A DNA stretch of 47,227 bases from NCBI RefSeq assembly GCF_027587195.1, contig NZ_JAPDDP010000061.1, forward strand, positions 1 to 47,227. The letters are read 5' to 3'. The notes under the pieces were generated by a model. It was not told where the DNA came from, searched no databases, and saw only the letters and a program-made list of their open reading frames with translations. The stretch comes from Solirubrobacter phytolaccae. GTDB lineage: Bacteria > Actinomycetota > Thermoleophilia > Solirubrobacterales > Solirubrobacteraceae. A program made the translations under genes and the position numbers. Shown here piece after piece: positions 10,886-44,730 of the stretch (position 1 is the first letter of the stretch; every line of letters begins with the position of its first letter).

Positions 10886-13800
10886 CTACGGCGTGGTGGT
10901 GCTCAGCGTGAAGGTGAGCGTCTGGCTGTAGGCGCCGGTGCGGAGCGCGTCGTTCGCCCCGATCAGCTGCTTGAACGTGACCGGCACGTCCTCGTTGGAG
11001 ACCGGGCCCGTCCAGGACGAACGGCCCAGCTCCACCCGCAACGGCTGCGGCAGCGAGAACGCGCTGTTGGTCAGGTGGCCCGGCTCGCTCACGCTCAACG
11101 CCGCGTCACCCGCGGTGCTGATCACGGTGGCCTTCGTGGACGCCGTGTACTCGCGCTCGACACCCGGCGTGAACGCGCCGAACGTCGCCGGAGTACCCAG
11201 CGTCAACGACAACGTGGCCGGCACCGAGCCGCCCGCGCCGGCCTCGACGTCGGTCTCCACCGCGACCGGAACGCTGACCGCCGCCGACTGGGAGACGCTC
11301 GAGCGCGTCTCGTCGGACGGCACGTACTTCGCCACGAGCGAGTGCACGCCAGCCGGCAGGCCGCTCACGTCGATCGTCGCCTCACCGGCGATGACCGGCA
11401 CGAGGCCGAGCGAGACGTCGCCGTCGAACAGCTCGACCGAGCCGAACACGTCACGCTCGGGCAGCTGGCCGGCGGACGTCGGCACGATCTTGACGGTTGC
11501 CGTGCGGGCCGCCCCGACCCGATCGTCACCGGCGACGGTGAGCGTCGTGGCCGTGGTCGTCGCCGGCGGGAACGGCAGCTGGACCGTGTCCCGCAGGAGC
11601 GGGACGGCCAGCGACACGGCCGAGATCGTCGTGTCGCGGTCGGCGGTCGGCTCGAAGCGCGCGTGGATCTGGCGCAGGTTCGTCGTCAGCGTCGTGGTGA
11701 GCGTCGCGACGCCGTTGACCACCGGGACCGGCGTGCCGATCGCCGTGCCGTTGCCGAACCCGAACTGCACCGTGCCGGCCAGCGTTGGGTCGGACACGCG
11801 GGCGGTGAACGTGAGGGCCTGCGAGACGATCCGCGGGCCGGACACCGTCACGTGCACGTACGGCGTCTTCAGCGCCGGAGCGGCCGCGGCCGGCGACCCC
11901 GCCGGCGCGAGCTCGACCGGCACCTCGGACGTCAGCACCGGCGTGTAGCCCGCGTTGAAGTTCGGGACCTCGGCGGAGACGCGGTGCTTGCCGGCCGCCA
12001 GCGCGGTCGTGACGAACGTCGCCTCGCCGTTCTCGTCGAAGTACGCGGAGCTCGAGCCCGCCGTGTCGGCGAACAGCGTCACCGCCGCGGCGTTGTTGAC
12101 GCGCGTGCGCATCTGCGCGAACAGCCGCTGCCCCGGATACAGGACGGACGGCTTGGCGCCGCGCAGCTTGAGCTTGATCGTCTGCGGCGCGCCCGCGACG
12201 CGGTCACCCGTGATCGAGACGATCTCGACGAACGGGACGCGCGGCTTGTACTCGACGAGACCCGTGATCGGGGTCGTCGTCGCCGACGACAGGAAGTTCT
12301 CGGCGTTGGCAGTGGTGAAGCGCGCCGAGAAGTTCACCGCGCCGCCGCTGAAGCGGTTGGTCAGGTCGATCTCGGCCTTGCCGTTGACGACCGGGAACGC
12401 GCGGCGGGTCTGGAAGCACTCGCATCCCGGCACCGGCTCGCTCGCGAACGAGTCCTGCAGGATCGTGGTGCCGTTGAGGAACTCGACCTTGCCCTGCGCA
12501 TTCGGGTCCGACACCGTCGCGATCAGCTTGTGCGTCTCCATGCCGACCTTCGTGCCGACCCACTCGAGCGAGACCGTCGTCGCCGTGCGGGCGCCCTGCG
12601 TCGGCGTGGCCTTGAGCACCGTGCCGGCGGCCGACCGGGAGGCCACGTTCTGCGCGCGCACCGTCACGGTGTGCTCCGTGCCGGCCGTGAGGCCGACGAA
12701 CGACGCCGACGTGCCGGTGACGATCGCCGGCGAGCCCAGCGCGTGCTGGCCGTTGGGGAGCTTGACGGTGACGTAGTAGGCCGTGGCGCCGGGCGTCGCG
12801 TCCCAGTTGACGGCGAGCTCGCCCGGCTTGGCCGTGGCGGTGACGCCGGTGGTGACGGCCGGGGCGGCGACCGGCTCGCCGATCGTCACGTACTGGCCGT
12901 AGGACTTGCCCAGGCCGGTGTCACCCGAGTCGGCGAGCAGCAGCGTCTTGGCGCCGGCGACGAGCGGGTTCGGCACCTCGGCGATGCCCTCCCACGCGCC
13001 GATGCGCCCCTCGTCGGTCGGGAGCTCGTTGACGAACTTCGGGTCGTGCGCCGGGTTGCCGTCCCACGTGTACAGCGCCCAGTTCTTGAGCGAGTCGTCC
13101 GTGTCACCCGTGCCGGCGGTGATCAGGTACTCATCGCGCGCGTTCTTGTTGATGTCGCGGATCGAGCGGCCACCGAGGTCGAGGAAGATCGGCGCGCCGA
13201 ACTGCGCGTTGACCGACTCCGACGTGAGCTTGTCGATGTTGGTGACCGGCAGGATGAGCGCGCGCTCGATGCCGTCGGCGCCCGTGATCGTCGGGGCACG
13301 CATGCCGAACCAGGCGACGGACGAGGAGCCCGGCGCCATCGTCAGGCCCTCGACGTTGAAGCCGTTCGGCGCGTTCGGGAGCAGGCCCGCGACGGTCGCC
13401 GTGTTGAACTTCAGGTAGTTCGCGCCCAAGCCGTGGCCGTTGGCCGCGTCCCACGCCTTCCACTGGTTCCACAGGCCCGTGTAGGAGTGCGACCACTCCA
13501 GGTCGACCTTGTCGCCCGAGCCCGTGATCTTCTGGAACGCCAGGAAGCGGCGCTCAGGACGCGCGCTGCCGGAGCGGTTGTTGCCGTGCGAGCCCGACCA
13601 CACGAGCATGTCGCCGAAGCGTGTCACGCCCTCGAAGTCGGTCTCGCCGCCCGGGAACCCGTCGCTCCAGGAAGCGAGCGGACGGCCCGAGACGCCCTTC
13701 TTGTACAGGTGGATCGTGTTGACCTCGTCCGACACGCCGAGGAAGTGGTCGCCGCCGACGTCGACCGCCGCCGACAGGTCGACCGCGCCGCTGTAGTAGT

Positions 13801-15199
13801 GCGAGCCCGGGTAGGGCGCCGCGGCGGTCGTGGCCAGCGAGACGGTGACCGTGGCCGTCTCGTCATCCGAGCGGGCGGTGAAGGTGACGGCGGTCGAGCC
13901 CGTCGTGATCGGGTTCAGCGTGGCCGTGCGCTTGCTGCCCGTACCCGTGATGGTGATGTTCGCGTTCGGCAGGATCGCCTGATTGGCGGACGTGGCCGTG
14001 ACGGTGACGTCGGTCGTGTTCGGGTCGAAGACCTCGAGGTCGACGCTCGCCTTCGGGGCGGCACCGATGTGCGTGTCGACCGCGGTCGCCGAGGCCGTGA
14101 TCACCGGCGGCGTGGCCGGATACGGCGTGCCGTCGGCCGGGAAGCCGGAGCCGGGAGCGAACGCGAGGCCGGTGAAGCGAGCCGTCCCCGGCGCGTAGGC
14201 CAGCGTCGTCGCGCCGGTCGACTTGAAGTCGGCACCGATCTCGGCCGTGTCGACGAGCTTGACCAGCTTCGCCGTGTTGTACGTGGTGGCGTAGAGCTCG
14301 ACGGCACCCGAGACGGCGCGCGCCGCGACGTAGTTGTAGTCGCCGCTGACGCTGCCGCGCGGCTTCCACGTGCCGTTGTCGAGGGCGAACTTCCACAGGC
14401 CACGGCCGAAGCGGACGACGTACGCCGTGTCCGCGCCTGCCGTGCCGTCCGTGTCGACGAAGACGGCGTCGAGCGCCCCGGGCGCGGAGATGAACAGCTG
14501 CGGCGGCGTCGTCGTGTCCAGCGCGGTCGGGAGCCCGCCGGGCAGGCGGTGGACACCGGACGTGTTGGTCGTGACCAGGCTGCCGTCCACGAGGTCGATG
14601 CTGGTCGGCCCCGGCGTGCTCGTCGGGAAGCCGCTGACCTGCGTCATCACCGTGTCGCCCTCGGCGAGCGTCGCGATCGGCTTGGCGTTGTGGGTGACGC
14701 CGATCCACTTGCGCGTGCCGTCGACCGTGACGATGCCCGCCGGCGAGTGGGCGATCGAGGTCATGAAGCCCGAGCCGAGCCGCTGGTCGGTCCAGGTGCC
14801 GTCGGCCTTGACCGTCACCGCGGTGCCGTTGGTTCCTTCCTGGTACGTCAGACCGGCGGCGGCGCGGATCGCGCTGAAGGTCAGGAAGCGACCGTCGGCC
14901 GAGCGGCGCAGCGCGGCCGCGCGCACGGCCTGCCCGGCCGGCTGGTTGGACTTCGTCAGCGTGTCGGTCGGAAACTGGACCCGGCCCTTGTAGGCGCCGT
15001 CCGCCGTGGACAGGCGGTGCAGTGCGACGTGGTCGGTCTTGGACTGGCCGAGCGGCAGGCCGGAGCCGCCGATGGCGATCACGGCCAGCTCGTCGGGCGT
15101 GGCCGGACCGGCGACGACGGGGTTGGCCGCCGCGGGTGCGGCCGCGGCGAGGAACGCGGCCAGCGCGAGCGCCAGCGCACGTCGGGACAACGGGGGCAA
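10886..15199 (-). CDS. Giant secreted surface protein, copy C of the tandem triplet (propeller-like, DUF3616-like, FN3, Ig repeats, C-terminal module)
   Basis: This 1437-aa protein has a signal peptide (about 1-25, 'AAAAPAAA'). A propeller-like N-terminal region (about 26-360) follows, with 'LRRSADGRFLTF' and 'GVHRLPGGLPT'. An Ig/cadherin-like domain spans about 370-460. A DUF3616-like domain (about 465-775) carries 'ETDFEG', 'GSHGNNRSG' and 'RPERRFLAFQ'. An FN3 domain lies at about 776-866, several Ig-like (Big_3 type) repeats at about 870-1320, and the shared C-terminal module at about 1322-1437. There is no LPXTG or membrane segment at the end. The start is TTG with a strong AGGAGG 7 bp upstream. 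It is last in the minus-strand order A-B-C, after a hairpin, so it may be expressed at a different level. Function unknown; surface adhesin or polymer-binding protein is plausible. Confidence 0.85.
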   Translation of the reverse strand: MPPLSRRALALALAAFLAAAAPAAANPVVAGPATPDELAVIAIGGSGLPLGQSKTDHVALHRLSTADGAYKGRVQFPTDTLTKSNQPAGQAVRAAALRRSADGRFLTFSAIRAAAGLTYQEGTNGTAVTVKADGTWTDQRLGSGFMTSIAHSPAGIVTVDGTRKWIGVTHNAKPIATLAEGDTVMTQVSGFPTSTPGPTSIDLVDGSLVTTNTSGVHRLPGGLPTALDTTTPPQLFISAPGALDAVFVDTDGTAGADTAYVVRFGRGLWKFALDNGTWKPRGSVSGDYNYVAARAVSGAVELYATTYNTAKLVKLVDTAEIGADFKSTGATTLAYAPGTARFTGLAFAPGSGFPADGTPYPATPPVITASATAVDTHIGAAPKASVDLEVFDPNTTDVTVTATSANQAILPNANITITGTGSKRTATLNPITTGSTAVTFTARSDDETATVTVSLATTAAAPYPGSHYYSGAVDLSAAVDVGGDHFLGVSDEVNTIHLYKKGVSGRPLASWSDGFPGGETDFEGVTRFGDMLVWSGSHGNNRSGSARPERRFLAFQKITGSGDKVDLEWSHSYTGLWNQWKAWDAANGHGLGANYLKFNTATVAGLLPNAPNGFNVEGLTMAPGSSSVAWFGMRAPTITGADGIERALILPVTNIDKLTSESVNAQFGAPIFLDLGGRSIRDINKNARDEYLITAGTGDTDDSLKNWALYTWDGNPAHDPKFVNELPTDEGRIGAWEGIAEVPNPLVAGAKTLLLADSGDTGLGKSYGQYVTIGEPVAAPAVTTGVTATAKPGELAVNWDATPGATAYYVTVKLPNGQHALGSPAIVTGTSASFVGLTAGTEHTVTVRAQNVASRSAAGTVLKATPTQGARTATTVSLEWVGTKVGMETHKLIATVSDPNAQGKVEFLNGTTILQDSFASEPVPGCECFQTRRAFPVVNGKAEIDLTNRFSGGAVNFSARFTTANAENFLSSATTTPITGLVEYKPRVPFVEIVSITGDRVAGAPQTIKLKLRGAKPSVLYPGQRLFAQMRTRVNNAAAVTLFADTAGSSSAYFDENGEATFVTTALAAGKHRVSAEVPNFNAGYTPVLTSEVPVELAPAGSPAAAAPALKTPYVHVTVSGPRIVSQALTFTARVSDPTLAGTVQFGFGNGTAIGTPVPVVNGVATLTTTLTTNLRQIHARFEPTADRDTTISAVSLAVPLLRDTVQLPFPPATTTATTLTVAGDDRVGAARTATVKIVPTSAGQLPERDVFGSVELFDGDVSLGLVPVIAGEATIDVSGLPAGVHSLVAKYVPSDETRSSVSQSAAVSVPVAVETDVEAGAGGSVPATLSLTLGTPATFGAFTPGVEREYTASTKATVISTAGDAALSVSEPGHLTNSAFSLPQPLRVELGRSSWTGPVSNEDVPVTFKQLIGANDALRTGAYSQTLTFTLSTTTP

Positions 15200-15277: not shown

Positions 15278-18200
15278 TTAGGGCTGCGTGGTGCTGAGCG
15301 TGAAGGTCAGCGTCTTGCTGTAGGCACCGGTGCGGAGCGCGTCATTGGCCCCGATCGCCTGCTTGAACGTGACCGGCACGTCCTCGTTGGCAGTCGGGCC
15401 CGACCAGGCCGAGCGGCCCAGCTCCACCCGCAGCGGCTGCGGCAGCGAGAACGCGCCGTTGGTCAGGTGGCCCGGCTCGCTCACGCTCAACGCCGCATCA
15501 CCCGCCGTGCTGATCACCGTCGCCTTGGTCGTCGCCGTGTACTCGCGCTCGACACCCGGCGTGAACGCGCCGAACGTCGCCGGAGCGCCCAGCGTCAGCG
15601 ACAACGTGGCCGGCACCGAGCCGCCGACCGGCGCCGGGGCGTCGGTCTGGACGATCTCCGAGCTCAGGCTGCGCGTCTCGTCGGAGGACACGTAGCGGGC
15701 GCGCAGCGTGTGCGGGCCCGCCCCGAGGCTGGACAGGTCGATCGTCGCGACGCCGACGCGGGTCGGGGCGAACCCGACCACGCGCTCGCCCTCAAGGATC
15801 TCGGCGTAGCCGTAGACGTCACGGATCGCGAACGCGTCGCCGCCGACCGGCGACACCGTCACCGTGCCCGTGGATCCGGAGACCGCGAGCGTCGTCTTCG
15901 TGGCCACCGTGCCCGAACGCGGCAGGTCGGTCGCCGCCCGCAGCAGCGGCACCGCCTGGGACGTCGCGCCGGCCGTGGTCGTGCGCTCGGCCACCACCGG
16001 GTCGAAGCGGGCGTAGATGCCCAGCTGCGGGCTCGTGTTGGTGACGGAGGTCGTCGCGACGCCGTTGACGACCGGGACCGCGGTGCCGAGCGCCGTGCTG
16101 TAGTTGAAGAACGTCACCGTGCCCGTGAGGGTCGGATCGGACAGCTTCGCCGTCAGCGTCAGCGCCTGACCGGTGCGCGTGACGCCGGGGCCGGACAGCT
16201 TGACGGCGATGGCCGGACGCTTGATCGGCTTGACCTCGGGCGCGGGCGAGCCGGCGGGCGCGATCGTGACCGGGATCTCGTCGGTCCACTGCGTCACGTA
16301 GCCCGTGGAGTAGCCGGGGACCTGGACGCTGATGCGGTGATCGCCGGCGGCGAGCGCGGTGGTGTAGATCGTCGCGAGTCCATCCTCGTTCAGGGCCGCG
16401 TAGCCGCTGGAGGTCTCCTGCGTGTCGCCGACCAGGCGCGTGCGGTTGACCGCGCCGTTCAGGCGCGTGTTGAACTCCGTGCGGATGACCTCACGCCACA
16501 GCTCCGACGGCTTGTAGCCCCCGAGCTTGACCGTGATGGCGATCCGGCTGCCGACGACGCGATCGCCGGTGATCGAGACGATCTCCGCCCAGGGCTGCTT
16601 CGGGCGGTACTCGAACAGCGTCGGCGCCACGGCGGACTCCGACGAGAGGTAGTTCTCGGCGTTGGCGGTGGTGAACTTCGCCTGCAGGTCCGTCATGCCG
16701 GCCCCACGTGCGTCGGTGATGTCGATCACGGCCTTGCCGTTGACGACGGGGAACGTGTGGGTGTAGACGTTGGCGCCCACGCTCGGGTCGAAGCCGGTCG
16801 CGAACGAGTCTTGGAGCCGCTGGCCGCTCCCGAAGAACTGGATCGTGCCGCGCGCGTTCGGGTCCGAGACCGTGGCGACGAGCTTCTGCACCTCGCCGAG
16901 GATGTTCGAGCCCTGGAACTCCAACGTCGTCGTGGTCGCGACGCGGGCGCCCTGGGTGGGCGTGGCCGTCGCGGGCGTTCCCGGGACGGCGCGCGTGGCG
17001 ACGTTCTGCGGGCGCACCTGAACCGTGTACTCCGTGCCGGCGGTGAGGCCCTCGAACGAGGCGCTCGTGCCGGTGACGAACTTCGGCGAGCCGGGGGCGT
17101 GGGCGCCCGCGGCGGTCTTGACCGTCACGTAGTACTGCGTGGCGCGGTCGGCCGCGTTCCAGCTGGCGTCGAGCGCGCCCGGCTTGCCCGTGGCGGTGAT
17201 GCCCGTGACCGCGGCCGGGCCGGCGATCGGCTCACCGATGGTCACGTACTGGCCGTAGGACTTGCCGAGGCCGGTGTCACCGGAGTCGGCGAGCATCAGG
17301 ACGCGGCTGCCGGCGACCAGGTCGGTCGGCAGCTCCGCGATGCCCTCCCACGCGCCGATCCGCGCCTCGTCGGTCGGGAGCTCCTTGACCATCTGCGGCT
17401 GGTGGTCGACGTTGCCGTCCCACGTGTACAGCGCCCAGTTCTTGAGGCTGTCGTCCGTGTCGCCGGTGCCCGCGCTGATCAGGTACTGGTCCTTCGCGTT
17501 CTTGCTGATGTCGCGGATGCTGCGACCACCGAGGTCGAGGAAGATCGGCGCGCCGAACTCCGCGTTCACGCTGTCGCTCGTCAGCTTGTCGAGGTTGTTG
17601 ACCGGCAGGATCACGGCGCGCTCGATGCCGTCGGCGCCCGTGATCGTCGGGGCGCGCATGCCGAACCAGGCAACGCTCGAGGAGCCCGGCGCCATCGTCA
17701 GGCCCTCGACGTTGAAGCCGTTCGGCGCGTTCGGGAGCAGGCCCGGCACCGTCGCGGTGTTGAACTTGAGCTTGTTCGCGCCGAGGCCGTGGCCGTTGCT
17801 CGCGTCCCAGTCCTTCCACTGCTGCCACAGGCGCGTGTAGCTGTTGCGCCACTCCAGGCCGACGGTCGCGCCGGAGCCGCTGATCGTCTGGAACGCGAGG
17901 AACCGGCGCTCCGGACGGGCCGAGCCCGAGCGGTTGTTGCCGTGCGAGCCGCTCCACACGATCGTGTTCCCGAAGCGCGTCGCGCCCTCGAAGTCGGTCT
18001 CGCCGCCCGGGAAGCCCTGGTTCCACTGCGCGAGCGACCCACCGCTCACGCCCTTCTTGAACAGGTGGACGGTGTTGACCTCGTCCGAGATGCCGAGGAA
18101 GTAGTCGCCGCCGACGTCGATCGCCGCCGACAGGTCGACCGGGCCCGAGTAGTAGTGCCCGCCTGGATCGGCGACCGCGGGCGAGACCTTCAGCGTGAGG

Positions 18201-19549
18201 GTCGCCGTCACGGCGTCGTCGCCGGAGCGCGCCGTGAACGTGACGGTCGCCGTGCCGGTCGCGATCGGGTCGAACGTCGCCGTGCGCACCGCGCCCGTGC
18301 CGCTGATGGCGATCTTGTCGTTGGGCAGGATCGTCTGGTTCGACGACGTCGCCGTCACCGTGACGTCGGCCGAGTTCGGGTCGAAGACCTCGAGCGTGAC
18401 GCTGCCCTTGGTCGTGGCACCGATGTGCGTGTCGACCGTCGTGGCCGAGGCGGTCATCGCGGGCGCCGTCGCCGGGTACGCGGTGCCGTCGGCCGGGAAG
18501 CCGCCGGTCGGCGTGAAGGCGAGGCCGGTGTAGCGGGCGCGCGCCGGCGCGTAGGCCAGCGTGCTCACGCCCGTGGTCTTGACGTCGCCGCCGACCTCCG
18601 CCGTGTCGACGAACTTGACGAGCTTGGCCGTGTTGGCCGTGGTGAGGTAGACCTCGATCGCGCCCGCGACGGCGCGCGCGGCGACGTAGCCGTAGCTGCC
18701 GCCGACGACGCCGCGGCTCTTCCACGTGCCGGCGTCGAGGGCGAACTTCCACACGCCGCGCCCGTCACGGACGACGTAGGCCGTGTCCGCGCCGGCGACG
18801 CCGTCGGTGTCGAGGAACGTCGCGTCGAGGGCGATCGGCGCCGCGATGAACTCCTGCGGCGGGGTCGTCGTGTTCTGCGCCGTCGGCAGGCCGCCGGGCA
18901 GGCGCGAGACACCCGTGATGCCCGTGACGACGAGGCTGCCGTCGACGAGGTCGATGCTGGTCACCGGGACCGTCGGCGTCGGGAACGCGCCGACCTGCGT
19001 CAGCTCCGTCTCACCCTCGGCGATCGTCGCGATCGGCTTGGTGTTGTGGTTGATGCCGAGCCACTTGCGCGTGCCGTCGAGCGAGACGGTGCCGACCGGG
19101 CCCTCGCCCGTCGTCATGTACGCGGTGCCGAGCCGCTGGTCGGTCCAGGTGCCGTCCGCCGCGACGCGCACGGTCGTGGCGTTGAGGATGTCCTGGTTGC
19201 TGGTCCCGGCCGCGCCGCGCCCGCCGTTGAACAGCAGGAAGCGACCGTCCGCCGAGCGCCGCAGCCCGGCGTTGCGGATCGGCGCGTTGAGCGAGTTGCT
19301 CGACTTCGTCAGCGTGTCCGACGGGAACAGGATCCGGCCCTTGTAGGCGCCGTCCGTCGTGGACAGGCGATGGAGCGCGACCTGATCCGCGCGGCGCGCG
19401 GCGTGCGTGGTGTTCACGCCGCCGACGGCGAGCACGGCCAACTCGTCAGGTGTCGCCGGGCCGGCGATCACCGGGTCGGCCGAAGCCGGCGCCGCAGCGC
19501 CGGCCAGGGTCACGAGCGCCAGTGCCAGCGCCCGTCGGGTGTTGTTCAT
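15278..19549 (-). CDS. Giant secreted surface protein, copy B of the tandem triplet
   Basis: This 1423-aa protein has the same domain order as its neighbours: signal peptide (about 1-25, 'GAAAPASA'), propeller-like region, Ig-like domain, DUF3616-like domain (about 465-775, 'GSHGNNRSG'), FN3 (about 776-866), divergent Ig-like repeats (to about 1300) and the C-terminal module (about 1306-1423, ending 'YSKTLTFTLSTTQP'). The DUF3616-like core and the C-terminal module are nearly identical to copy C, while the Ig repeats match only moderately. ATG start, 12 bp after the stop of copy A, so A and B are surely co-transcribed. No catalytic motif is visible. Role unknown; probably exported and bound to the cell surface or its polymers. 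Confidence 0.85.
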   Translation of the reverse strand: MNNTRRALALALVTLAGAAAPASADPVIAGPATPDELAVLAVGGVNTTHAARRADQVALHRLSTTDGAYKGRILFPSDTLTKSSNSLNAPIRNAGLRRSADGRFLLFNGGRGAAGTSNQDILNATTVRVAADGTWTDQRLGTAYMTTGEGPVGTVSLDGTRKWLGINHNTKPIATIAEGETELTQVGAFPTPTVPVTSIDLVDGSLVVTGITGVSRLPGGLPTAQNTTTPPQEFIAAPIALDATFLDTDGVAGADTAYVVRDGRGVWKFALDAGTWKSRGVVGGSYGYVAARAVAGAIEVYLTTANTAKLVKFVDTAEVGGDVKTTGVSTLAYAPARARYTGLAFTPTGGFPADGTAYPATAPAMTASATTVDTHIGATTKGSVTLEVFDPNSADVTVTATSSNQTILPNDKIAISGTGAVRTATFDPIATGTATVTFTARSGDDAVTATLTLKVSPAVADPGGHYYSGPVDLSAAIDVGGDYFLGISDEVNTVHLFKKGVSGGSLAQWNQGFPGGETDFEGATRFGNTIVWSGSHGNNRSGSARPERRFLAFQTISGSGATVGLEWRNSYTRLWQQWKDWDASNGHGLGANKLKFNTATVPGLLPNAPNGFNVEGLTMAPGSSSVAWFGMRAPTITGADGIERAVILPVNNLDKLTSDSVNAEFGAPIFLDLGGRSIRDISKNAKDQYLISAGTGDTDDSLKNWALYTWDGNVDHQPQMVKELPTDEARIGAWEGIAELPTDLVAGSRVLMLADSGDTGLGKSYGQYVTIGEPIAGPAAVTGITATGKPGALDASWNAADRATQYYVTVKTAAGAHAPGSPKFVTGTSASFEGLTAGTEYTVQVRPQNVATRAVPGTPATATPTQGARVATTTTLEFQGSNILGEVQKLVATVSDPNARGTIQFFGSGQRLQDSFATGFDPSVGANVYTHTFPVVNGKAVIDITDARGAGMTDLQAKFTTANAENYLSSESAVAPTLFEYRPKQPWAEIVSITGDRVVGSRIAITVKLGGYKPSELWREVIRTEFNTRLNGAVNRTRLVGDTQETSSGYAALNEDGLATIYTTALAAGDHRISVQVPGYSTGYVTQWTDEIPVTIAPAGSPAPEVKPIKRPAIAVKLSGPGVTRTGQALTLTAKLSDPTLTGTVTFFNYSTALGTAVPVVNGVATTSVTNTSPQLGIYARFDPVVAERTTTAGATSQAVPLLRAATDLPRSGTVATKTTLAVSGSTGTVTVSPVGGDAFAIRDVYGYAEILEGERVVGFAPTRVGVATIDLSSLGAGPHTLRARYVSSDETRSLSSEIVQTDAPAPVGGSVPATLSLTLGAPATFGAFTPGVEREYTATTKATVISTAGDAALSVSEPGHLTNGAFSLPQPLRVELGRSAWSGPTANEDVPVTFKQAIGANDALRTGAYSKTLTFTLSTTQP

Positions 19550-19561
19550 CCTTGAGGTTCC

Positions 19562-22500
19562 TTACGGGTTCGTGGTGCTGAGCGTGAAGGTCAGGGTCTT
19601 GCTGTACGCGCCCGTGCGCAGCGCGTCGGTCGTGGCGATCGACTGCTTGAACGTGATCGCCACGTCCTCGTTCGAGACCGGGCCGGTCCACGTCGAACGG
19701 CCCAGTTCGACCCGCAGGGGCTGTGGCAGCGAAAACGCGCCGTTGGCCAGATGGCCGGGCTCGCTCACGCTCAGCGCCGCGTCACCCGCGGTGCTGAGCA
19801 CGGTTGCCTTCGTGGTCGCCGTGTACTCCTTCTCCACACCCGGCGTGAACGCGCCGAACGTCGCGGGCGTGCCGAGCGTGAGCGCGAGGGTCGCCGGGAC
19901 GGAGCCGCCGACCGGCGCCTCCGCCTTGGTCTGCACCGCGATCGCCACGTCCTGCGCCGCCGACTCGGAGCCCTTCGAGCGCTCCGCGTTGGACGTCAGG
20001 TAGCGGGCACGCAGCGCGTGGACGCCGGCGCCGAGGCCGCCGACGTCGAACGTCGCCACACCGCGGAGCGCCGGCGCGAAGCCGACCACGCGGTCGCCGT
20101 CGAGCAGCTCGACGCCGCCGTTGACGTCACGGTCGGCGAACGCGTCGCCGCCGACCGGGGCGACCGTCACCTTCGCCGTCAGCGGCTCCCCCACCACGCG
20201 TGCGCCCGAGACCTCGAGCTGCGTCGTCGTCGCCCACGCGGGCGGGAACGGCAGCGTCGTCGCCACGCGGTACATCGGCACGAGCTGCGACACCGACGAC
20301 GCGTTCGTGTCGCGGTCGGCGGCCGGCTCGAAGCGTGCGGCGACGAACAGCAGCTGGGTCGTGTTGGTCACGCTCGCCGTCGCGACGCCGTTGACCACCG
20401 GGACCGCCGTGCCGAGGTTGGCGCTCAGGTTGGGGTTGAAGAACTGCACGGTGCCGGTGAGCGTCGGGTCCGCGAGCCGCGCCGTCATCGTCAGCGGCTG
20501 GTTCGTGGTCCGGACGCCCGGCCCGGACACGGACGTGACGACCGTCGTCGTCTTGACCGGCTTGACCTCCGGCGCCGGCGAGCCGGCGGGCGCGATCGTC
20601 ACCGGGACCTCGTCCGAGCCCGTCGGCAGGAAGGTCCCGTCGGACAGCAGCCCGGCGCTGACGCGGTGTGAGCCGGCGGCGAGCGTCGTGTAGAGCGTGG
20701 CGGTCCCGTCCTCGGCGAACGCGGGCTCGCCGGTCAGGTTCGTCTGCGCCGCGGAGCCGTTCAGGCGGACCCGGAACCGCGTGCGCAGGCCCTCCGGCAC
20801 GAGCTGCGTCGGCGTGTAGCCGTGCACCTTGATCGTGATCCCGATCTGGCTGCCCGCCACACGGTCACCCGTGATCGAGACGAGCTCGACCCGCGGCTGG
20901 CGCGGCCGGTAGTCGATGAGGAACGGGACGACCGGAGACTCCGACGAGAGGAACTCCTCCGGGTTGCTGCTCGTGTACTTGGCCTGCAGGCTCAGCACGG
21001 ACTGCAGGTAGGAGACGTCCAGCGTGGCCTTGCCGCCGACGACGGGGACCGGGACGCCGATCACCAAGACGCCCTGAAAGAACTGCACCGTGCCCTGGGC
21101 GTTCGGGTCCGAGATGGTGGCCACGAGCTTCTGGCCGCGCTCGCCGCTGATCTGCCCGCCCTCGAACGTGAGCGTCGTCGTGGTCGCGACGCGCGCGCCC
21201 TGGGTCGGGGTGACCTTGACCGCGGTGGAGTTGGCCGTGCGCGTGGCGGGGTTCTCCGCGCGCACGTGGACGGTGTACTCCGTGCCGCCGGTCGCGCCCG
21301 CGAACGAGGTCGAGGTGCCGGTGACGAACTTGGGCGAGCCCGGCGCGTGCTGGCCCGCGGCGTTCGTCGCGGACACGCGGTACCGCGTGGTCCGCTCGGC
21401 CGCGGTCCAGCTGACGTCGAACGCGCCGGTCTTCGCCGTCGCGGTGACGCCCGTGACGACGGACGGGCCGGCGACCGCCTCGCCGATGGTCACGTACTGG
21501 CCGTAGGACTTGCCGAGGCCGGTGTCACCGGAGTCGGCGGTCAGCAGCGCCTTCGCGCCGGCGACGAGCGGGTTCGGCACCTCGGCGATGCCCTCCCACG
21601 CGCCGATCACCGTCGCGTTGGTGACGAGCTCGTTGACGAACTTCGGATCGTGGGCCGGGTTGCCGTCCCACGTGTACAGCGCCCAGTTCTGAAGGCTGTC
21701 GTCCGTGTCGCCGGGGCCGGCGGTGATCAGGTACTCGTCGGCCGCGTTCTTGTTGATGTCGCGGATCGAGCGGCCGCCGAGGTCCAGGAAGATCGGCGCG
21801 CCGAACTGCGCGTCGACGGCGTTGGACGTGAGCTTGTCGATGTTGGTGACCGGCAGGATGAGCGCGCGCTCGATCCCGTCCGCACCCGTGATGGTCGGGG
21901 CGCGCATGCCGAACCACGCGGTGGTCTGCGAACCCGGTGCCATCGTCAGGCCTTCGACGTTGAAGCCGAACGGCGCGTTCGGGAGCAGGTTCGGCACCGT
22001 CGCGGTGTCGAACTTGAGCTTGTTCGCGCCAAGGCCGTGGCCGTTGGCCGCGTCCCACGCCTTCCACTGGTCCCACAGGCGCGTGTACGAGTGCGACCAC
22101 TCGAGCTCGGTGGTCGCGCCGAAGCCTGTGATCTTCTGGAACGCGAGGAACCGGCGCTCGGGACGGACCGCGCCGCTGCGGTTGTTGCCGTGCGAGCCCG
22201 TCCACACGAGCGTGTCGCCGAAGCGGGTCGCGCCCTCGAAGTCGGTCTCGCCGCCCGGGAAGCCCTGATTCCACGACTTCACCGGACGACCGGTGACGCC
22301 CTTCTTGAACAGGTGGATCGTGTTGACCTCGTCCGAGACGCCGAGGAAGTAGCCGTCGCCGACGTCGATCGCCGCCGACAGGTCGACCGGGCCGCTGTAG
22401 TAGTGCGCGGTCGGGTCCGGCGCGGGGCCGCTGGCGTTGAAGGGGAGCGTCGCGGTCACGGTGTCGCCCTCCGCGCTGGCCGTGAACGTGAGGCCCGCGC

Positions 22501-23773
22501 TGCCCGCGCTGACCGGGTCGAACGTGACCGTGCGGGTCGCGCCCGTACCCGTGACGGTGATCCTGTCGTTCGGCAGGACCGCCTGGTTCGACGAGCTGGC
22601 GGTGACCGTGATGTCGGTCGTGTTCGCGTCGGTGACCTCGAGCTCGATGCTCGCCTTGGGCGTCACGCCGACGTGCGTCTGGACCCCGGTCAACGGGGCG
22701 GTGAGGACCGGCGGCGCCGCCGGGTACGGCGTCGCGTCGGCCGGGAAGCCCGTGCCCGGGGCGAACGCGAGCCCTCCGAAGAAGACGCGGCCCGGGGCGT
22801 ACGCGAGCGTGGTCGCACCGGTGGTCGTCAGCTGCGCGCCGATCTCGGCGGTGTCGAGGAGCTTGACGACCTTCGTGTTGTCGAACGCGGTGAGGTAGAC
22901 CTCGACCGCACCGGCGACGGCACGCGCGGCGACGTAGCGGAAGGCGCCGCTGAGCGTGCCGCGCGGGGCCCACGTGCCGCCCGACAGCACGTACTTGCTC
23001 ACGCCGAAGCCGTTGCGCGTGACGTACGCCGTGTCGGCACCGGGGATGCCGTCCGTGTCGACGAAGGTGCTGTCGTACGCGAACGTCGCCGGGAGGAAGA
23101 GCTGCAGCGGCGTCGTCGTGTTCAGCGTCGTGGGCAGACCGCCCGGGAGGCGGTGCACGCCGGTGTTGCTGGTCATGACGAGGCTGCCGTCGACCAGGTC
23201 GGTGCTCTGCGCGGGGAGCCCGCCGTTCGCCACCTGCGTCAGCGCGGTCTCGCCGGGCGCGATCGTCCCGAACGGCTTCGTGGTCCGGGTGCCGACCCAG
23301 GTCCGGGAGCCGTCCACGGTGAGCGCGCCGACCGCGTTGTTGAACTCCGTGATGAAGCCCGAGCCGAGCCGCTGGTCGGTCCACGTGCCATCGGCGGCGA
23401 CGCGGACCGCCGTTGCGTTCTCGGCGTCCTGGTACTGCGCGCCGACGGGCGCGCGGTTGGCCGTGAACGTCAGGAAGCGTCCGTCGGCGGAACGCCGTAG
23501 GACGGTGAACTCCATGACGTTCTGCGGCCGGGTCAGCGTGTCCGACGGGAACAGGATGCGACCGCGGTAGGCGCCGCCCGCCGTGGCTACGCGGTGCAGC
23601 GCGACCTGGTCGGCCTGCTGCGAGTTGATCGTCGCCAGCGGGCCGACCGCGAGCAGGGCGAGCTCGTCGGGCGTGGCCGGCCCGGCGACCACCGGATCGG
23701 CGCTTGCGGGTGCGGCCGCGGCCAGCAGCGCCGCACAGCCGGCGGTGACCGCCCGCCGGAAAGTCTTCGACAC
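19562..23773 (-). CDS. Giant secreted surface protein, copy A of the tandem triplet (operon-leading)
   Basis: This 1403-aa protein is the first gene of the operon. It has a signal peptide (about 1-26, 'LLAAAAPASA'), a propeller-like N-terminal region, an Ig-like domain (about 365-450), a DUF3616-like domain (about 456-765, 'ETDFEGATRFG', 'GSHGNNRSG'), FN3 (about 768-858), Ig-like repeats with 'GTAVPVVNGVAT'-type strands, and the C-terminal module (about 1286-1403, ending 'YSKTLTFTLSTTNP'). The start is GTG with GAGGAG 6 bp upstream. Its promoter must lie in the 222-bp region shared with the divergent LysR gene, which contains a perfect 12-bp inverted repeat. It is the most diverged copy in the Ig repeats. 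Confidence 0.85.
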   Translation of the reverse strand: MSKTFRRAVTAGCAALLAAAAPASADPVVAGPATPDELALLAVGPLATINSQQADQVALHRVATAGGAYRGRILFPSDTLTRPQNVMEFTVLRRSADGRFLTFTANRAPVGAQYQDAENATAVRVAADGTWTDQRLGSGFITEFNNAVGALTVDGSRTWVGTRTTKPFGTIAPGETALTQVANGGLPAQSTDLVDGSLVMTSNTGVHRLPGGLPTTLNTTTPLQLFLPATFAYDSTFVDTDGIPGADTAYVTRNGFGVSKYVLSGGTWAPRGTLSGAFRYVAARAVAGAVEVYLTAFDNTKVVKLLDTAEIGAQLTTTGATTLAYAPGRVFFGGLAFAPGTGFPADATPYPAAPPVLTAPLTGVQTHVGVTPKASIELEVTDANTTDITVTASSSNQAVLPNDRITVTGTGATRTVTFDPVSAGSAGLTFTASAEGDTVTATLPFNASGPAPDPTAHYYSGPVDLSAAIDVGDGYFLGVSDEVNTIHLFKKGVTGRPVKSWNQGFPGGETDFEGATRFGDTLVWTGSHGNNRSGAVRPERRFLAFQKITGFGATTELEWSHSYTRLWDQWKAWDAANGHGLGANKLKFDTATVPNLLPNAPFGFNVEGLTMAPGSQTTAWFGMRAPTITGADGIERALILPVTNIDKLTSNAVDAQFGAPIFLDLGGRSIRDINKNAADEYLITAGPGDTDDSLQNWALYTWDGNPAHDPKFVNELVTNATVIGAWEGIAEVPNPLVAGAKALLTADSGDTGLGKSYGQYVTIGEAVAGPSVVTGVTATAKTGAFDVSWTAAERTTRYRVSATNAAGQHAPGSPKFVTGTSTSFAGATGGTEYTVHVRAENPATRTANSTAVKVTPTQGARVATTTTLTFEGGQISGERGQKLVATISDPNAQGTVQFFQGVLVIGVPVPVVGGKATLDVSYLQSVLSLQAKYTSSNPEEFLSSESPVVPFLIDYRPRQPRVELVSITGDRVAGSQIGITIKVHGYTPTQLVPEGLRTRFRVRLNGSAAQTNLTGEPAFAEDGTATLYTTLAAGSHRVSAGLLSDGTFLPTGSDEVPVTIAPAGSPAPEVKPVKTTTVVTSVSGPGVRTTNQPLTMTARLADPTLTGTVQFFNPNLSANLGTAVPVVNGVATASVTNTTQLLFVAARFEPAADRDTNASSVSQLVPMYRVATTLPFPPAWATTTQLEVSGARVVGEPLTAKVTVAPVGGDAFADRDVNGGVELLDGDRVVGFAPALRGVATFDVGGLGAGVHALRARYLTSNAERSKGSESAAQDVAIAVQTKAEAPVGGSVPATLALTLGTPATFGAFTPGVEKEYTATTKATVLSTAGDAALSVSEPGHLANGAFSLPQPLRVELGRSTWTGPVSNEDVAITFKQSIATTDALRTGAYSKTLTFTLSTTNP

Positions 23774-27274: not shown

Positions 27275-27332
27275 TTGCGTTGAGGATCGAGCAGTAGTTC
27301 AAGTCACACGGTGCACGGTCGAAGACCCGGCT

Positions 27333-32754: not shown

Positions 32755-32834
32755 GGACCGACTCTGCTCTCCCGCGTGCCCTTCGTCAAGCCGTATCGGG
32801 AGGGTGGAGCTGCCCGCACCCGGGGGGTCCTGAT

Positions 32835-32855
32835 CCAGGCGTCGGGGACGCCTGG
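32835..32855. promoter_or_regulatory. Perfect dyad between the two-component system and the MMPL gene
   Basis: CCAGGCGTC (32835-32843) and GACGCCTGG (32847-32855) are exact inverses separated by GGG. The site lies between the divergent response regulator and MMPL genes, where a NarL-type dimer would bind. It could also form an RNA hairpin in the transporter leader. The rest of 32755-32934 shows nothing clear. Confidence 0.5.
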
Positions 32856-32934
32856 TCCCCCGCATGGGCGGCGGGCCCTCCCGTTGGGACGCTGCTCGCG
32901 TCAGATGAACCCCCTCCCCGGAGTCGAACCCCAC

Positions 32935-35130
32935 ATGCAATCCCGCAACCTCGCGGCGCGCGCAGGCCGATGGAGCGCGCAGCACCGCAAGACCGCCATC
33001 TTCGGATGGTTGCTGTTCGTGGTCCTCGCGACCGTGATCGGCGGTTCGGTCGGCCAACGCACGCTCGAGTCCTCGAAGATGGGCAACGGCGAGTCCAAGC
33101 GCCACGACCTGCTCGTCGACGGCGCCGGCTTCCCGAAGGACGTCGGCGAGCGCGTCCTGGTCCAGGGTCGCGACGGCGCGCTCCGGGCCGACAGCCCGCA
33201 GGTCACCGCCGCGGTGAAGGACGTCACCACGCGCCTCGATCAACTCCCCGGCGTACGCGAAGTCGAGGCACCGATCACCTCCAAGGACGGGCGCTCCGTG
33301 CTCGTCACGTTCTCCCTGCCCGGCAGCGAGAAGGACAACGACACGGCCCACCTGGAGGAGATCGCCGGCGCGCCGATGGCCGCCGTCGCCGCGGTCCAGA
33401 AGGCCCACCCCGAGCTGCGCGTGGAGCAGCACGGCGGCGCGTCCGAGCAGAAGGCGCTCGGCAAGCAGCGCAAGGCCGAAGAGGCGCGCGAGCAGCAGCT
33501 CTCGATGGGCGGCACGCTGCTCATCCTCGCGCTGACGTTCGGCGCGCTGGTCGCGGCGGGTGTGCCGCTGCTGCTCGGCATCACGTCGATCGCGGCCACG
33601 ATCGGGCTGCTCGGCCCGCTCAGCCAGCTCTCCCCGCTGCACGGCGCCGTCCAGCAGGTCGTGCTGCTGATCGGCCTGGCCGTCGGCGTCGACTACGCGA
33701 TGTTCTACCTGCGCCGGATGACGCAGGAGCAGGACCGTGGGCGCTCACCTGAGGACGCGCTGGAGGTGGCCGCGGCGACGTCCGGCCGCGCCGTGCTGAT
33801 CTCCGGCTTCACCGTGATGGCCGCGATGGCCGGCATGTTCCTGTCGGGCAACGCGATCTTCTCCTCGTTCGGCGTCGGCACGATCCTCGTGGTCGCCGTC
33901 GCGATGCTCGGCTCGCTCACGTTCCTCCCCGCCGTGCTGTCCTACCTCGGCCAGAAGGGGTGGCTCGAGAAGGGCCGGCTGCCGTTCATCCTCAAGCGCC
34001 GCCATCGCTCGAACGGCGAGTCGCGCGTGTGGAACGCCGTCCTCTCGCGCGTGCTGGCCCGTCCGGTCGTGTCCGTGATCGTCGCCGGCGGCGCGCTCGT
34101 CGCCCTGTCCGTGCCCGCGCTCGGCATGCACTTCAAGGAGCCCGGGCTCGAGGGCATGTCCCGCAGCGAGCCGATCATCCAGACGCTCGACCGGATCGAC
34201 GCCGCGTTCCCGGGTGACACGCTCGCCGCGAGCGTCGTCGTCAAGGCCGAGGACGTGACGGCCGCGCCGGTGCGGCAGGCGATCGACGAGCTGCAGGCGC
34301 AGGCGCTCGCCACGGGCAAGCTGAACGAGCCGTTCCGCACGGAGGTCAGCCCCGACAGGACAGTGGCCATCGTCTCGATGGCGATCGACGGCAAGGGCAC
34401 GGACGCCGCGTCCGCGGCCTCGCTCGACGCGCTGCGCGACGACGTCGTGCCCGCGACGGTCGGCCGGCTGCCCGGCGCGGAGGTCGCGGTCGGTGGCATG
34501 ACGGCGTGGTCGAAGGACTTCCTCGACGTCATGCAGGCGCGTCTGCCGCTGGTGTTCGGGTTCGTGCTCACGCTGGCCTTCGTGCTGCTGCTCGTCACGT
34601 TCCGCTCGATCGTCGTGCCGCTGAAGGCGATCGTGCTCAACCTGCTGTCGGTCGGCGCCGCGTACGGCGTGCTCACGCTGGTCTTTCAGGACGGTCACGG
34701 CGAGTCGCTGCTCGGCTTCACGTCGGTCGGCGGGATCACGCCGTGGCTGCCGCTGTTCCTGTTCGTCGTGCTCTTCGGCCTGTCGATGGACTACCACGTG
34801 TTCGTCCTGAGCAAGGTCCGTGAGCTGGTGGACCGCGGCCGCACGACCGAGCAGGCCGTGGCCGAGGGCATCAAGTCCACGGCGAGCGTGATTACGAGCG
34901 CCGCGGCCGTCATGGTCGTCACGTTCGCCGCGTTCGCGACGGGCTCCGACCAGACGATGAAGCAGCTCGGCGTCGGCCTCGCGGCCGCCGTCCTGATCGA
35001 CGCGACGATCGTCCGCGCGGTGCTGCTGCCCGCGACGATGAAGCTGCTGGGCGAGCGCAACTGGTGGCTCCCCCGGCGCCTCGGCTGGCTCCCGAAGTTC
35101 GAGCACGAGCCGGCGGTCGCGCCCGCGTAG
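32935..35130 (+). CDS. MMPL/RND-family membrane transporter
   Basis: This 731-aa integral membrane protein has the two-fold repeat of the MMPL family: one membrane segment, an extracytoplasmic loop (about 45-180), five segments, a cytoplasmic link, then the same again. Family motifs seen are 'GVDYAMFYLRRM' in the first half and 'GLSMDYHVFVLSKVRE' in the second, containing the proton-relay Asp and Tyr residues. Such proteins export lipids, siderophores or drugs by proton-motive force. ATG 32935 is chosen because a CGGAG lies upstream and the sequence 'SRNLAARAGRWSAQHRK' is the typical beginning; ATG 32905 is in frame. A strong terminator follows. Confidence 0.9.
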   Translation: MQSRNLAARAGRWSAQHRKTAIFGWLLFVVLATVIGGSVGQRTLESSKMGNGESKRHDLLVDGAGFPKDVGERVLVQGRDGALRADSPQVTAAVKDVTTRLDQLPGVREVEAPITSKDGRSVLVTFSLPGSEKDNDTAHLEEIAGAPMAAVAAVQKAHPELRVEQHGGASEQKALGKQRKAEEAREQQLSMGGTLLILALTFGALVAAGVPLLLGITSIAATIGLLGPLSQLSPLHGAVQQVVLLIGLAVGVDYAMFYLRRMTQEQDRGRSPEDALEVAAATSGRAVLISGFTVMAAMAGMFLSGNAIFSSFGVGTILVVAVAMLGSLTFLPAVLSYLGQKGWLEKGRLPFILKRRHRSNGESRVWNAVLSRVLARPVVSVIVAGGALVALSVPALGMHFKEPGLEGMSRSEPIIQTLDRIDAAFPGDTLAASVVVKAEDVTAAPVRQAIDELQAQALATGKLNEPFRTEVSPDRTVAIVSMAIDGKGTDAASAASLDALRDDVVPATVGRLPGAEVAVGGMTAWSKDFLDVMQARLPLVFGFVLTLAFVLLLVTFRSIVVPLKAIVLNLLSVGAAYGVLTLVFQDGHGESLLGFTSVGGITPWLPLFLFVVLFGLSMDYHVFVLSKVRELVDRGRTTEQAVAEGIKSTASVITSAAAVMVVTFAAFATGSDQTMKQLGVGLAAAVLIDATIVRAVLLPATMKLLGERNWWLPRRLGWLPKFEHEPAVAPA

Positions 35131-35176: not shown

Positions 35177-35220
35177 GCGTTCCGGTAGCGTCGCTCGCAC
35201 CAACCGAGAGGGTGACGGCA

Positions 35221-36918
35221 ATGACGCTGCGAGCCGGTGGTCGGAGCACCAAGCGCACACGTTTGGTGGGGTCAACCGCGACGGTCCTCCTGGGAGGTGT
35301 CCTCGCCGGTGCGGCGCCGGTTGCGGCGGCCGAGTACCCCGTCGGCCACGACGTGCAGCGGATCGTCGTGCCCGGGTCGGCGCAGGGCGAGCCGCGCCAG
35401 GTGGACGTGCACCTCTGGTACCCCGCGACCGCTTCGACGCTCCCCAAGACCGTCTACACGTCCGCGCTGCACGGTGTTCCCGTTCCGGCCCCGTTCGCGC
35501 CGCTCGGGTGGACGGTCGAGGCCGAGCTGGCGCAGGAGGACGCGCCGGTGGCGGCGACCGGGAAGCCGTTCGGCGTGATCGTCTTCTCGCACGGCAACAC
35601 GAACGACCCCATGGACTACGCACACACCCTGGAGCGGATCGCGGCCGGCGGGTTCGTGGTCGCCGCGCCCTCGCACACCAACAACACGCAGGAGGACGCG
35701 CGGATCGACGCCTACAACGCGCTGGCGGGAGCGACGCCGCGGCCGTGCAACGACGGGCGCGCCGGGCCGTGCTCACGCGCCAGCGTCCCGTTCAGCATGG
35801 CCGACCGCACGCGCGACGTCTCGAAGGTCCTCGACGCGCTGCCCGGCTGGTTCGGGTCGCGGATCGACGTCGCCCAGGCCGGGCTGCTCGGGCACTCCCG
35901 CGGCACGCTGACCGCGCTCGCGACCGCCGGCGGCAGCGCGCCGCCGGTGCCCGCCAACCCGACGTGCTCCGGCGACCCGGCCCGCTGCTGGCCGCTGACC
36001 GCGGACCCGCGCGTCGTGGCCGTGATGGGCATGGCGATCGGCCAGCAGCCGATCTCGCTCGGCGTCGACTACAAGGCGATCAAGGTGCCGACGCTGCTGG
36101 TCTCCGCCGCGAAGGACCTGATGTCCCCGCCGCTGGTGAGCCAGAACGCATACGCCGCGATCACGAGCGCCGACAAGCGCCTCGTGTCGATCCCCAACGG
36201 GGTCCATCGCAGCTTCGACTCGACCTACTGCGACCAGATGCAGGCGGCGGGACGGCGCGTCGCCGCCAACGCCGACGCGGCGCTCGACCGGCACACGTTC
36301 GAGCGGATCGTGACCAGCCTCAACTCGGGCTGGGGCACCGACTTCTGCTCGTTCGCGAGCTTCGCGGGCATCGAGGAGCTCACGCGGATCGCGACCGGCG
36401 GCTTCACGCCGACCGCGACGAACGTGCCCGTCACCGGGCTGGACACGGACGCGGTCAAGGAGCAGATGGCGGCGCTGGCGGTCGACTTCTTCGGCACCCG
36501 GCTGGCGCGCGTCGCGAGCGGCGGGGTGAGCGGCACCGTCCCGGCGACGCTCGCGCTCACGCTCGGCACGCCGGCGTCGTTCGGCGCGTTCGTCCCGGGC
36601 GTCGACCGCACCTACGACGCGAGCACGAGGGCGACCGTCACCTCGACGGCCGGCAGCGCACAGCTCTCGGTCGGCGACCCGAGCGCCACGGCCACCGGCC
36701 GGCTGGTCAACGGCAACTTCGCCCTCGACCAGCCGCTGCAGGTGCGCGCGAACGGCGCGCCCTCGGCCCCGCTCGGCGCCCTACGTGACTACGCGGGCCC
36801 GGTCAGCAACGACGTGTCCACGGTCGACTTCCGGCAGACGATCGCGCGCACGCAGCCGCTCAGGACCGGCGTGTACAGCAAGACGCTCACGTTCACGCTG
36901 TCGACGACGGCGCCGTGA
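35221..36918 (+). CDS. Secreted alpha/beta hydrolase (PAF-acetylhydrolase/lipase-like) carrying the shared C-terminal module
   Basis: This 565-aa exported enzyme has a signal peptide (about 1-38). The alpha/beta-hydrolase domain (about 45-400) shows the oxyanion segment 'VFSHGN', the nucleophile elbow 'GHSRG' (Ser about 225), a likely Asp in 'SAAKDLMSPP' (about 300) and His in 'NGVHRSF' (about 330). The layout resembles PAF-acetylhydrolase and dienelactone-hydrolase-like esterases. From about 436 to the last residue it carries the same module as the three giant surface proteins ('LGTPASFGAFVPGV', 'FRQTIARTQPLRTG', ending 'YSKTLTFTLSTTAP'), with small insertions. ATG 35221 has a purine-rich site upstream; GTG 35212 is the alternative. 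The shared end suggests the same surface destination. Confidence 0.85.
   Translation: MTLRAGGRSTKRTRLVGSTATVLLGGVLAGAAPVAAAEYPVGHDVQRIVVPGSAQGEPRQVDVHLWYPATASTLPKTVYTSALHGVPVPAPFAPLGWTVEAELAQEDAPVAATGKPFGVIVFSHGNTNDPMDYAHTLERIAAGGFVVAAPSHTNNTQEDARIDAYNALAGATPRPCNDGRAGPCSRASVPFSMADRTRDVSKVLDALPGWFGSRIDVAQAGLLGHSRGTLTALATAGGSAPPVPANPTCSGDPARCWPLTADPRVVAVMGMAIGQQPISLGVDYKAIKVPTLLVSAAKDLMSPPLVSQNAYAAITSADKRLVSIPNGVHRSFDSTYCDQMQAAGRRVAANADAALDRHTFERIVTSLNSGWGTDFCSFASFAGIEELTRIATGGFTPTATNVPVTGLDTDAVKEQMAALAVDFFGTRLARVASGGVSGTVPATLALTLGTPASFGAFVPGVDRTYDASTRATVTSTAGSAQLSVGDPSATATGRLVNGNFALDQPLQVRANGAPSAPLGALRDYAGPVSNDVSTVDFRQTIARTQPLRTGVYSKTLTFTLSTTAP
36526..36918 (+). other. Region encoding the shared C-terminal module (hydrolase copy)
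   Basis: Codes for about 130 residues homologous to the last 115-118 residues of the proteins ending at 10886, 15278 and 19562. Conserved points are 'VPATL.LTLG', 'FGAF.PGV', 'STAG.A.LSV', 'GPVSN', 'LRTG.YS' and a stop right after 'TLTFTLSTT.P'. Confidence 0.8.
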
Positions 36919-44681: not shown

Positions 44682-44730
44682 TCTCTCCCCCTGCACCCGT
44701 CAAACGATCAGTACCGCGCGGAAGGTACCA

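Follow-up and report, generated by a model that had tools for sequence, protein, structure and literature searches.

We analysed a C-terminal module that ends an exported alpha/beta hydrolase and three giant exported proteins in a 47,227-nucleotide stretch of the Solirubrobacter phytolaccae genome (hereafter the window, always meaning the whole stretch). The module is probably a WxL-like domain for attachment to the cell surface, one in which neither Trp-x-Leu motif survives and which has come to serve exported proteins as a general tag. The original prediction, made from the letters of the window, had proposed a C-terminal sorting or attachment domain, and this proposal is supported by the exact terminal position of the module, the diversity of the proteins that carry it and the DUF916-like genes that lie beside module genes; we infer that the carriers are attached to the cell surface. 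The same prediction had compared the beta pattern of the module with WxL domains, a hunch that is backed independently by those DUF916-like neighbours, within the genus and in other genera.

Comparison by BLASTP indicated that the tails are homologous: residues 439-568 of the hydrolase match residues 1288-1403 of giant 3 (58% identity, E 5e-35). This was the sole significant match between the two proteins, with only chance-level scores outside the tail, so that both the common tail and the dissimilarity of the rest of the hydrolase stand as predicted. The proposed bounds of 36526-36918 were good, the start lying at about 36520, and all four window copies do reach the stop codon. The description of the giants as unrelated proteins holds towards the hydrolase but not among themselves: giants 1 and 2 (P0002 and P0003) are 66% identical, and giant 3 (P0004) has the same Pfam architecture. 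Since the giants are tandem paralogues, the window shows two independent contexts of the module, not four. Their genes, encoding about 1400 residues each, occupy 10886-23773 on the minus strand and represent a tandem amplification.

That the tail ends four proteins proved real, but the count is far higher. A sequence search of the window's genome identified at least 145 proteins that end in the module; this is a lower bound, since 150 of 185 candidates were scored. Of the 149 matches listed we excluded four: the trailing half of a match that was split in two, and three with E-values of 0.097, 0.152 and 2.04. A profile search gave at least 147 matches at E ≤ 0.001 (150 of 223 candidates scored). 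The module therefore ends about 2% of the genes in this genome (145 of ~7,400, estimated at one per 1050 bases). It is 115-140 residues long, and all 145 copies are C-terminal, the match reaching the stop codon in 144 and, in the remaining, split case, with its second piece. Thus, the claim that the module always sits at the exact protein end survived a search for internal copies. Complete copies in further loci were also all terminal, with 0-2 residues left over (L178, cut by the locus end, was excluded). Pro occupies the final position in all 145 copies, an indication that the C terminus itself may be recognised. Invariance extends to two Tyr, one Gln and one Gly, most copies finish in S-T-T-x-P, and a V-G-G-x-V-P stretch before the first strand is strongly conserved. 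Median pairwise identity among modules is only 59%, which points to an old expansion and argues against a recent burst of DNA copying. A FastTree phylogeny of 155 modules left the root unresolved. One row, the small protein of G202, was mis-framed, and we retained only one grouping, that of copies on contigs C80 and C66 of the window's genome with the small module proteins of genomes G157 and G203 (support 1.0).

The original prediction had expected the module on many mutually unrelated exported proteins, and the carriers bear this out. By a simple heuristic, 133 of 145 have a signal-peptide-like start; among the other 12, at least one (C80_45140) misses only through a wrong choice of start. 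With the module removed, single linkage (BLASTP E < 1e-10) sorted the carriers into 60 groups; demanding 60% cover raised this to 73. We compared 29 of the 72 group representatives, our own non-random choice, with Pfam at a threshold of E ≤ 1e-4. Four had no match, and 21 of the 25 with a match are hydrolases: peptidases of families M1, M6, M14, M28, M64, S8 and S15, as well as an amidase, an alkaline phosphatase, a glycerophosphodiesterase, a GH78 rhamnosidase, a polysaccharide deacetylase, esterases, a nucleoside hydrolase and a nuclease-like protein. PKD, CBM6, fn3 and FG-GAP occur as accessory parts. The carriers do not include every exported protein, as the GH78 rhamnosidase of the window ends without the tail. 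Many secreted enzymes bear C-terminal beta-sandwich accessory domains, and this, together with the share of hydrolases, favours a different explanation, in which the module is a C-terminal cap for folding, secretion or stability, or binds substrate or exopolysaccharide, with no attachment to the cell. We consider that explanation unlikely: the same module ends the non-enzymatic giants, binding needs neither an invariant final Pro nor an exact end, and in several genera DUF916-like genes and stand-alone small versions adjoin genes of the module or of its relatives.

The absence of an LPXTG motif or membrane-anchor tail, noted for the four window proteins, extends to the larger set. One of the 145 carriers has LPxTG within its last 200 residues, six have a lipobox-like motif and two an internal transmembrane-like stretch; on our reading of the sequences, the module has no hydrophobic segment or basic tail. 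We therefore regard it as very improbable that the module is a sorting signal which a dedicated secretion or sortase-like machine would cleave or process, in the manner of type IX C-terminal domains (CTDs), LPXTG or PEP-CTERM. A tail that always ends the protein, in more than 100 unrelated exported cases, does recall type IX CTDs, and a sortase is present in all seven Solirubrobacter genomes; against this, the tail is a folded domain of 115-140 residues with almost no LPxTG and no hydrophobic segment followed by a basic end.

All seven genomes of the genus hold the module, with at least 147, 107, 107, 109, 69, at least 150 and at least 149 matches (profile, E ≤ 0.001, at most 150 candidates scored per genome). 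Across the class, 6 of 199 genomes matched; two of these belong to the genus, and 4 of the 197 others have one copy each. A second class draw, searched with two small relatives of the module, gave matches in 11 of 299 genomes, three of them of the genus, and brought in two further members of the family, G494 and G545. At the phylum level 5 of 396 genomes matched, namely the window's own, three of its family and G248, whose match (E 9e-4) is junk, a 32-residue frame with six stops. The expectation that the module would occur mostly in Thermoleophilia at large was thus not upheld; it is nearly confined to one genus, where it has expanded. Weak matches in G117, G475, G485 and G568, and a third match in G494, were left unused, having no DUF916-like or module-profile neighbour. 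Among viral contigs searched with one window module, 36 pattern matches were found and none was confirmed.

We detected a DUF916-like match in all seven Solirubrobacter genomes, seen beside a module gene in six of them and, judged from spacing, in G199 as well, and DUF916-like genes also adjoin a module gene or a small relative of it in six genomes of other genera. These calls rest mostly on profiles built in this analysis; L158 alone scores above the Pfam PF06030 cut-off (30.3 bits against 27.3), and L159, L160, L161 and L166 score below it. Four of the five DUF916-like matches in the window's genome adjoin a module gene, an arrangement that would arise at random with a probability of about 1e-5, or 2e-4 if the trio described below is taken as one, assuming one gene per 1050 bases. 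A separate core locus consists of a trio in the order DUF916-like gene (256-289 residues), small module protein (168-169) and DUF916-like gene (265-266); in the window's genome the two DUF916-like genes lie at C80:44148-44924 and C80:45588-46385. It is present in five of five genomes fetched for it (G000, which is the genome of the window, G157, G200, G202 and G203), and the spacing of profile matches in G199 fits the trio pair. In five of the seven genomes a carrier judged by eye to be phosphoesterase-like is followed 4-95 bases downstream by a DUF916-like gene, whose product has a C-terminal transmembrane-like segment, also judged by eye (in the window's genome, C95:38557-39423). One of these five downstream products exceeds the PF06030 cut-off. 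Within the genus, then, the small module protein sits with DUF916-like genes and the large carriers lie elsewhere. PMC12537917 notes that genes for a metal-binding domain have metallophosphatases and DUF916 genes as neighbours, a setting reminiscent of the pairing of phosphoesterase and DUF916 seen here.

Related clusters occur outside the genus. G011, G017 and G545 share the order large module protein, secreted protein of 438-469 residues (by eye in G011), small protein and DUF916-like protein. The small protein matches the module profile clearly in G545 (E 1.4e-6), weakly in G011 (E 0.002) and marginally in G017 (E 7e-4, 0.02 or 0.34, depending on the profile), and in each genome at least one profile scores it above all 300 of its shuffled versions. 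The secreted protein that lies between the large and small proteins of G017 and G545 (L242:5176-6489 and L172:4402-5808) has no Pfam match. In G047 and G124 a small secreted relative of 166-173 residues, which has W-T-L where the module has A-x-L, adjoins a large DUF916-like protein with a C-terminal transmembrane-like segment; in G494 two such W-T-L relatives are followed by one DUF916-like transmembrane protein. In two genera (G494, L195/L204; G047, L132) a gene that looks SmpB-like by eye is found close to those of the small W-T-L protein and its partner, and this location is possibly conserved. The window's genome also encodes a small WxL-like protein (C136:96135; PF13731, E 2e-4 to 9.4e-4, below cut-off) with a DUF916-like transmembrane neighbour. 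The pair (C136:95063-96485; L240:2564-4256) lies about 70 bases from an oppositely oriented module gene, and a plasmid search for relatives of the small protein gave one chance match only. Elsewhere in the phylum, WxL proteins were found in 10 of 296 genomes (four over the cut-off); they too adjoin DUF916 genes, and 4 of 5 scanned neighbours pass the PF06030 cut-off.

Domain libraries offered no other identity for the module. Among 56 modules, Pfam gave only stray matches (12 families, each in 1 of 56, best E 0.002), with PF13731 matched neither by these modules nor by the window proteins, and NCBIfam returned nothing above cut-off for one module and the four window proteins (best E 0.04). A known domain with a different role, which would have spoken against the original prediction, was therefore looked for and not found in either library. 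Aligned with WxL, the module keeps the Leu of the two Trp-x-Leu motifs in 144 (first) and 143 (second) of 145 copies. By hhalign, for which all E-values given here are single comparisons of small alignments, the module matches the core small proteins at 99.8% (E 6e-29) and four small W-T-L relatives at 98.4% (E 1e-14; 97.3% with two relatives). These four relatives match actinobacterial WxL at 76% (E 2e-5) in an alignment of just 53 columns, a value that falls to 36.5% when two relatives are used, and a mixed set of 12 matches it at 68.5%; the WxL set comprised 11 sequences, and the ones from L186, L187 and L166 fall short of the Pfam cut-off. The trio DUF916-like proteins match the transmembrane proteins of G047, G124 and G494 at 99.2% (E 8e-20) and PF06030-type proteins of other Actinomycetota at 97.4% (E 1e-11). 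The latter are also matched by the transmembrane-anchored partners of the phosphoesterase-like carriers (99.4%, E 4e-21) and by the transmembrane proteins of G047, G124 and G494 (96.8%). A mixed DUF916-like profile finds the solved EfmWxLIP1 (9i25, 9i1y) in the PDB at E 2e-8, and not PapD; the PF06030 proteins of other Actinomycetota included in that profile are the source of part of this signal, and the trio proteins alone gave no EfmWxLIP1 match in the PDB.

Several observations weigh against a WxL-like attachment domain. The original prediction saw no WxL motif, and indeed Trp is found at either aligned position in none of 145 copies, the first position being A in 137 and the second F in 129. 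Direct comparison of the module with actinobacterial WxL by hhalign was not significant (~2%), and the core small proteins match WxL at only 18.6%, so the link from module to WxL passes through four small relatives that were chosen post hoc. Because the motif and the Pfam model fail and the direct profile match is not significant, we rejected filing the module as WxL proper. The trio DUF916-like proteins have no transmembrane segment at the C terminus and do not reach the cut-off of a WxLIP model; a PF06030 scan of six of them, from three genomes, gave no match. The partners in G047, G124, G494, G011, G017 and G545 also stay below the WxLIP cut-offs. The transmembrane-anchored partner gene is absent from G199 and G200, which have 107 module copies each, and a profile search did not find the trio pair in G201; hence there is no universal single partner. 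Four DUF916-like genes (L232, L237, L238 and L239) have no module gene within 2.4-3.2 kb on each side, and our survey of neighbouring genes covers a minority of the carriers. Finally, the small protein of the cluster type that we take below as ancestral is clear in one of three genomes only.

A beta pattern had been noted in the module, and AlphaFold2 models agree. The short module of giant 3 (mean pLDDT 83.4) and the last 150 residues of the hydrolase (mean pLDDT 77.8, the first 23 residues below 50) are both modelled as all beta, with the last strand extending to the second-last residue. Foldseek found no PDB match at E ≤ 0.001 for either model; the best was the chaperone-usher pilin CfaB (4y2l; E 4.5e-3 for the short module and 2.0e-3 for the hydrolase tail, prob 1.00), and pilins made up 33 and 38, respectively, of the best 50 rows. 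With VIA-align, pilins filled 44 and 49 of the best 50 rows. CsuA/B 6fqa came first for the short module (Z 8.5, 105 residues, 2.6 A), and the hydrolase tail matched CsuA/B 7zl4 (Z 9.8, 116 residues, 2.5 A) and 6fqa (Z 9.7, 120 residues, 2.8 A). No WxL structure was seen among the best 50 VIA-align rows of each model, which excludes nothing, and a profile search of PDB sequences with the module gave no match. Such moderate Z values may come from an arrangement that is simply widespread; middling scores are to be expected for many models, which also suits a cap or binding module. Proximity to solved pilins (CsuA/B 6fqa, Z 8.5 and 9.7) raises the idea that carrier modules and small module proteins polymerise into a fibre by exchanging strands, a process in which the DUF916-like proteins would serve as chaperones. 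The placement of the small module protein between two DUF916-like genes in the core locus would fit, as would the position of the conserved V-G-G-x-V-P stretch in the least confident block of the model (residues 1-10, mean pLDDT 52). One terminal module per carrier would, however, permit capping and not chain growth, and we give the fibre little credence. Chaperones read the C-terminal ends of pilins. A speculative variant, to which we assign a small but somewhat better chance, is that the DUF916-like proteins are strand-donating chaperones or sockets for the small module protein, into which more than 100 exoproteins plug, giving a usher-free, pilin-like display in which the exact C terminus is recognised. 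If true, this would amount to an enzyme-studded surface, cellulosome-like in logic and built by strand complementation.

We return to the reading that we prefer, a WxL-like attachment domain comparable to the WxL anchors of gut bacteria. Carriers would be exported by the Sec route, after which the module would dock to an envelope component, most likely a DUF916-like partner, or else the small module protein or the cell wall; docking would keep enzymes and immunoglobulin-rich proteins on the cell surface. PMC9772566 describes WxL domains as invariably C-terminal and concludes that they anchor the large proteins. In Enterococcus, an AlphaFold2 prediction has the WxLIP partner lend a strand that completes the WxL sandwich (PMC10599100), and it has been suggested that WxLIP anchors WxL on peptidoglycan. 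Since the module shares with WxL its position, its type of neighbouring gene and a predicted pilin-like fold, by analogy it most likely works in the same way; more tentatively, a partner may lend a strand that completes the module sandwich, as predicted for WxL and WxLIP. The ancestral state was likely a single cluster with a large carrier, a small module-like protein and a DUF916-like protein, one of each. In Solirubrobacter, the small module protein and the DUF916-like genes would have become a separate core locus, and the tail would then have been copied onto about 70 to at least 150 different exported proteins.

The features of the window are listed in Table 1. The N terminus of the hydrolase is signal-peptide-like, as judged on the translation. 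Among 31 genomes of the family, the hydrolase is present only in G000 and G157; both copies bear the module, so this enzyme offers no comparison with and without it. Such a comparison is offered by the GH78 rhamnosidases: that of the window is exported (40182-44696, minus strand) and lacks the tail, another in the genome (L074) has it, and the two form a natural pair for probing the role of the tail. A DUF916-profile match inside the window rhamnosidase (40602-40883, E 0.0017) was rejected as a partner because Pfam assigns NPCBM_assoc in the C-terminal part of the protein. Between the giants and the hydrolase, 25061-33642 holds a cluster of regulatory genes, a MalT-like LuxR regulator (Pfam) followed by a histidine-kinase-like protein and a LuxR-type response regulator, both assigned by eye.

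Table 1. Module carriers of the window and the extent of their C-terminal modules
Feature	Position	Strand	Basis
Alpha/beta hydrolase, exported, Hydrolase_4/PETase-like, module carrier	35221..36918	+	Pfam PF12146, E 5e-9
Hydrolase, alternative start (GTG at 35212)	35212-36918	+	
Hydrolase C-terminal module, long form, including stop codon	36520..36918	+	BLASTP E 5e-35 against giant end
Giant 1, exported (DUF3616-like, fn3, Big_3_5)	10886..15199	-	Pfam
Giant 1 C-terminal module, short form, including stop codon	10886..11242	-	
Giant 2, exported, paralogue of giant 1	15278..19549	-	66% identity
Giant 2 C-terminal module, short form, including stop codon	15278..15634	-	
Giant 3, exported, Pfam architecture as in giants 1 and 2	19562..23773	-	
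Giant 3 C-terminal module, short form, including stop codon	19562..19918	-	All-beta AlphaFold2 model

Our literature search found no paper joining Solirubrobacter and WxL and none on Thermoleophilia surface proteins; in the titles and opening lines of abstracts, the literature on Solirubrobacter C-terminal domains holds nothing on the module. On our reading, a domain outside Pfam and NCBIfam gains a likely role and candidate partners. Surface attachment would account for the way in which a soil genus retains its secreted enzymes close to the cell in the absence of LPXTG. It would also mean that a WxL-like system, starting with a single carrier in each cluster, has grown into a general tag. Should the tail function as proposed, it would further be a ready handle for enzyme display on Gram-positive cells.

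Four known systems invite comparison. The type IX CTD of Bacteroidota is one terminal domain on many unrelated exported proteins, and the module resembles it in being a single terminal domain on a large exported set; type IX secretion, however, needs an outer membrane and a dedicated apparatus. LPXTG-sortase anchoring likewise relies on a C-terminal wall-attachment tag in Gram-positive bacteria, and each Solirubrobacter genome has a sortase, but the module lacks the LPXTG motif, hydrophobic segment and basic tail of sortase substrates. Chaperone-usher pilins (Csu/SCPU CsuA/B 6fqa and 7zl4; CfaB 4y2l) are the best structural matches and share a last strand near the C terminus; in contrast to them, the module is fused to the C termini of enzymes, occurs in a Gram-positive phylum and has no PDB sequence match. 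The closest parallel is WxL with WxLIP. The module differs from WxL in having neither Trp, no Pfam match and no significant direct profile match, from WxL clusters in being spread over 69 to at least 150 scattered carriers per genome, and from WxLIP systems in that the core trio partners lack a C-terminal transmembrane segment. Like WxL (PF13731), however, it is a terminal beta domain on exported proteins that comes in small stand-alone and large versions; like WxL and WxLIP (DUF916 PF06030 and DUF3324 PF11797, in the Csc clusters of Firmicutes), it has DUF916-like genes adjacent; it shares with actinobacterial WxL the end pattern G-x-Y-x-x-T-x-T; and its small relatives still keep the first W-x-L.

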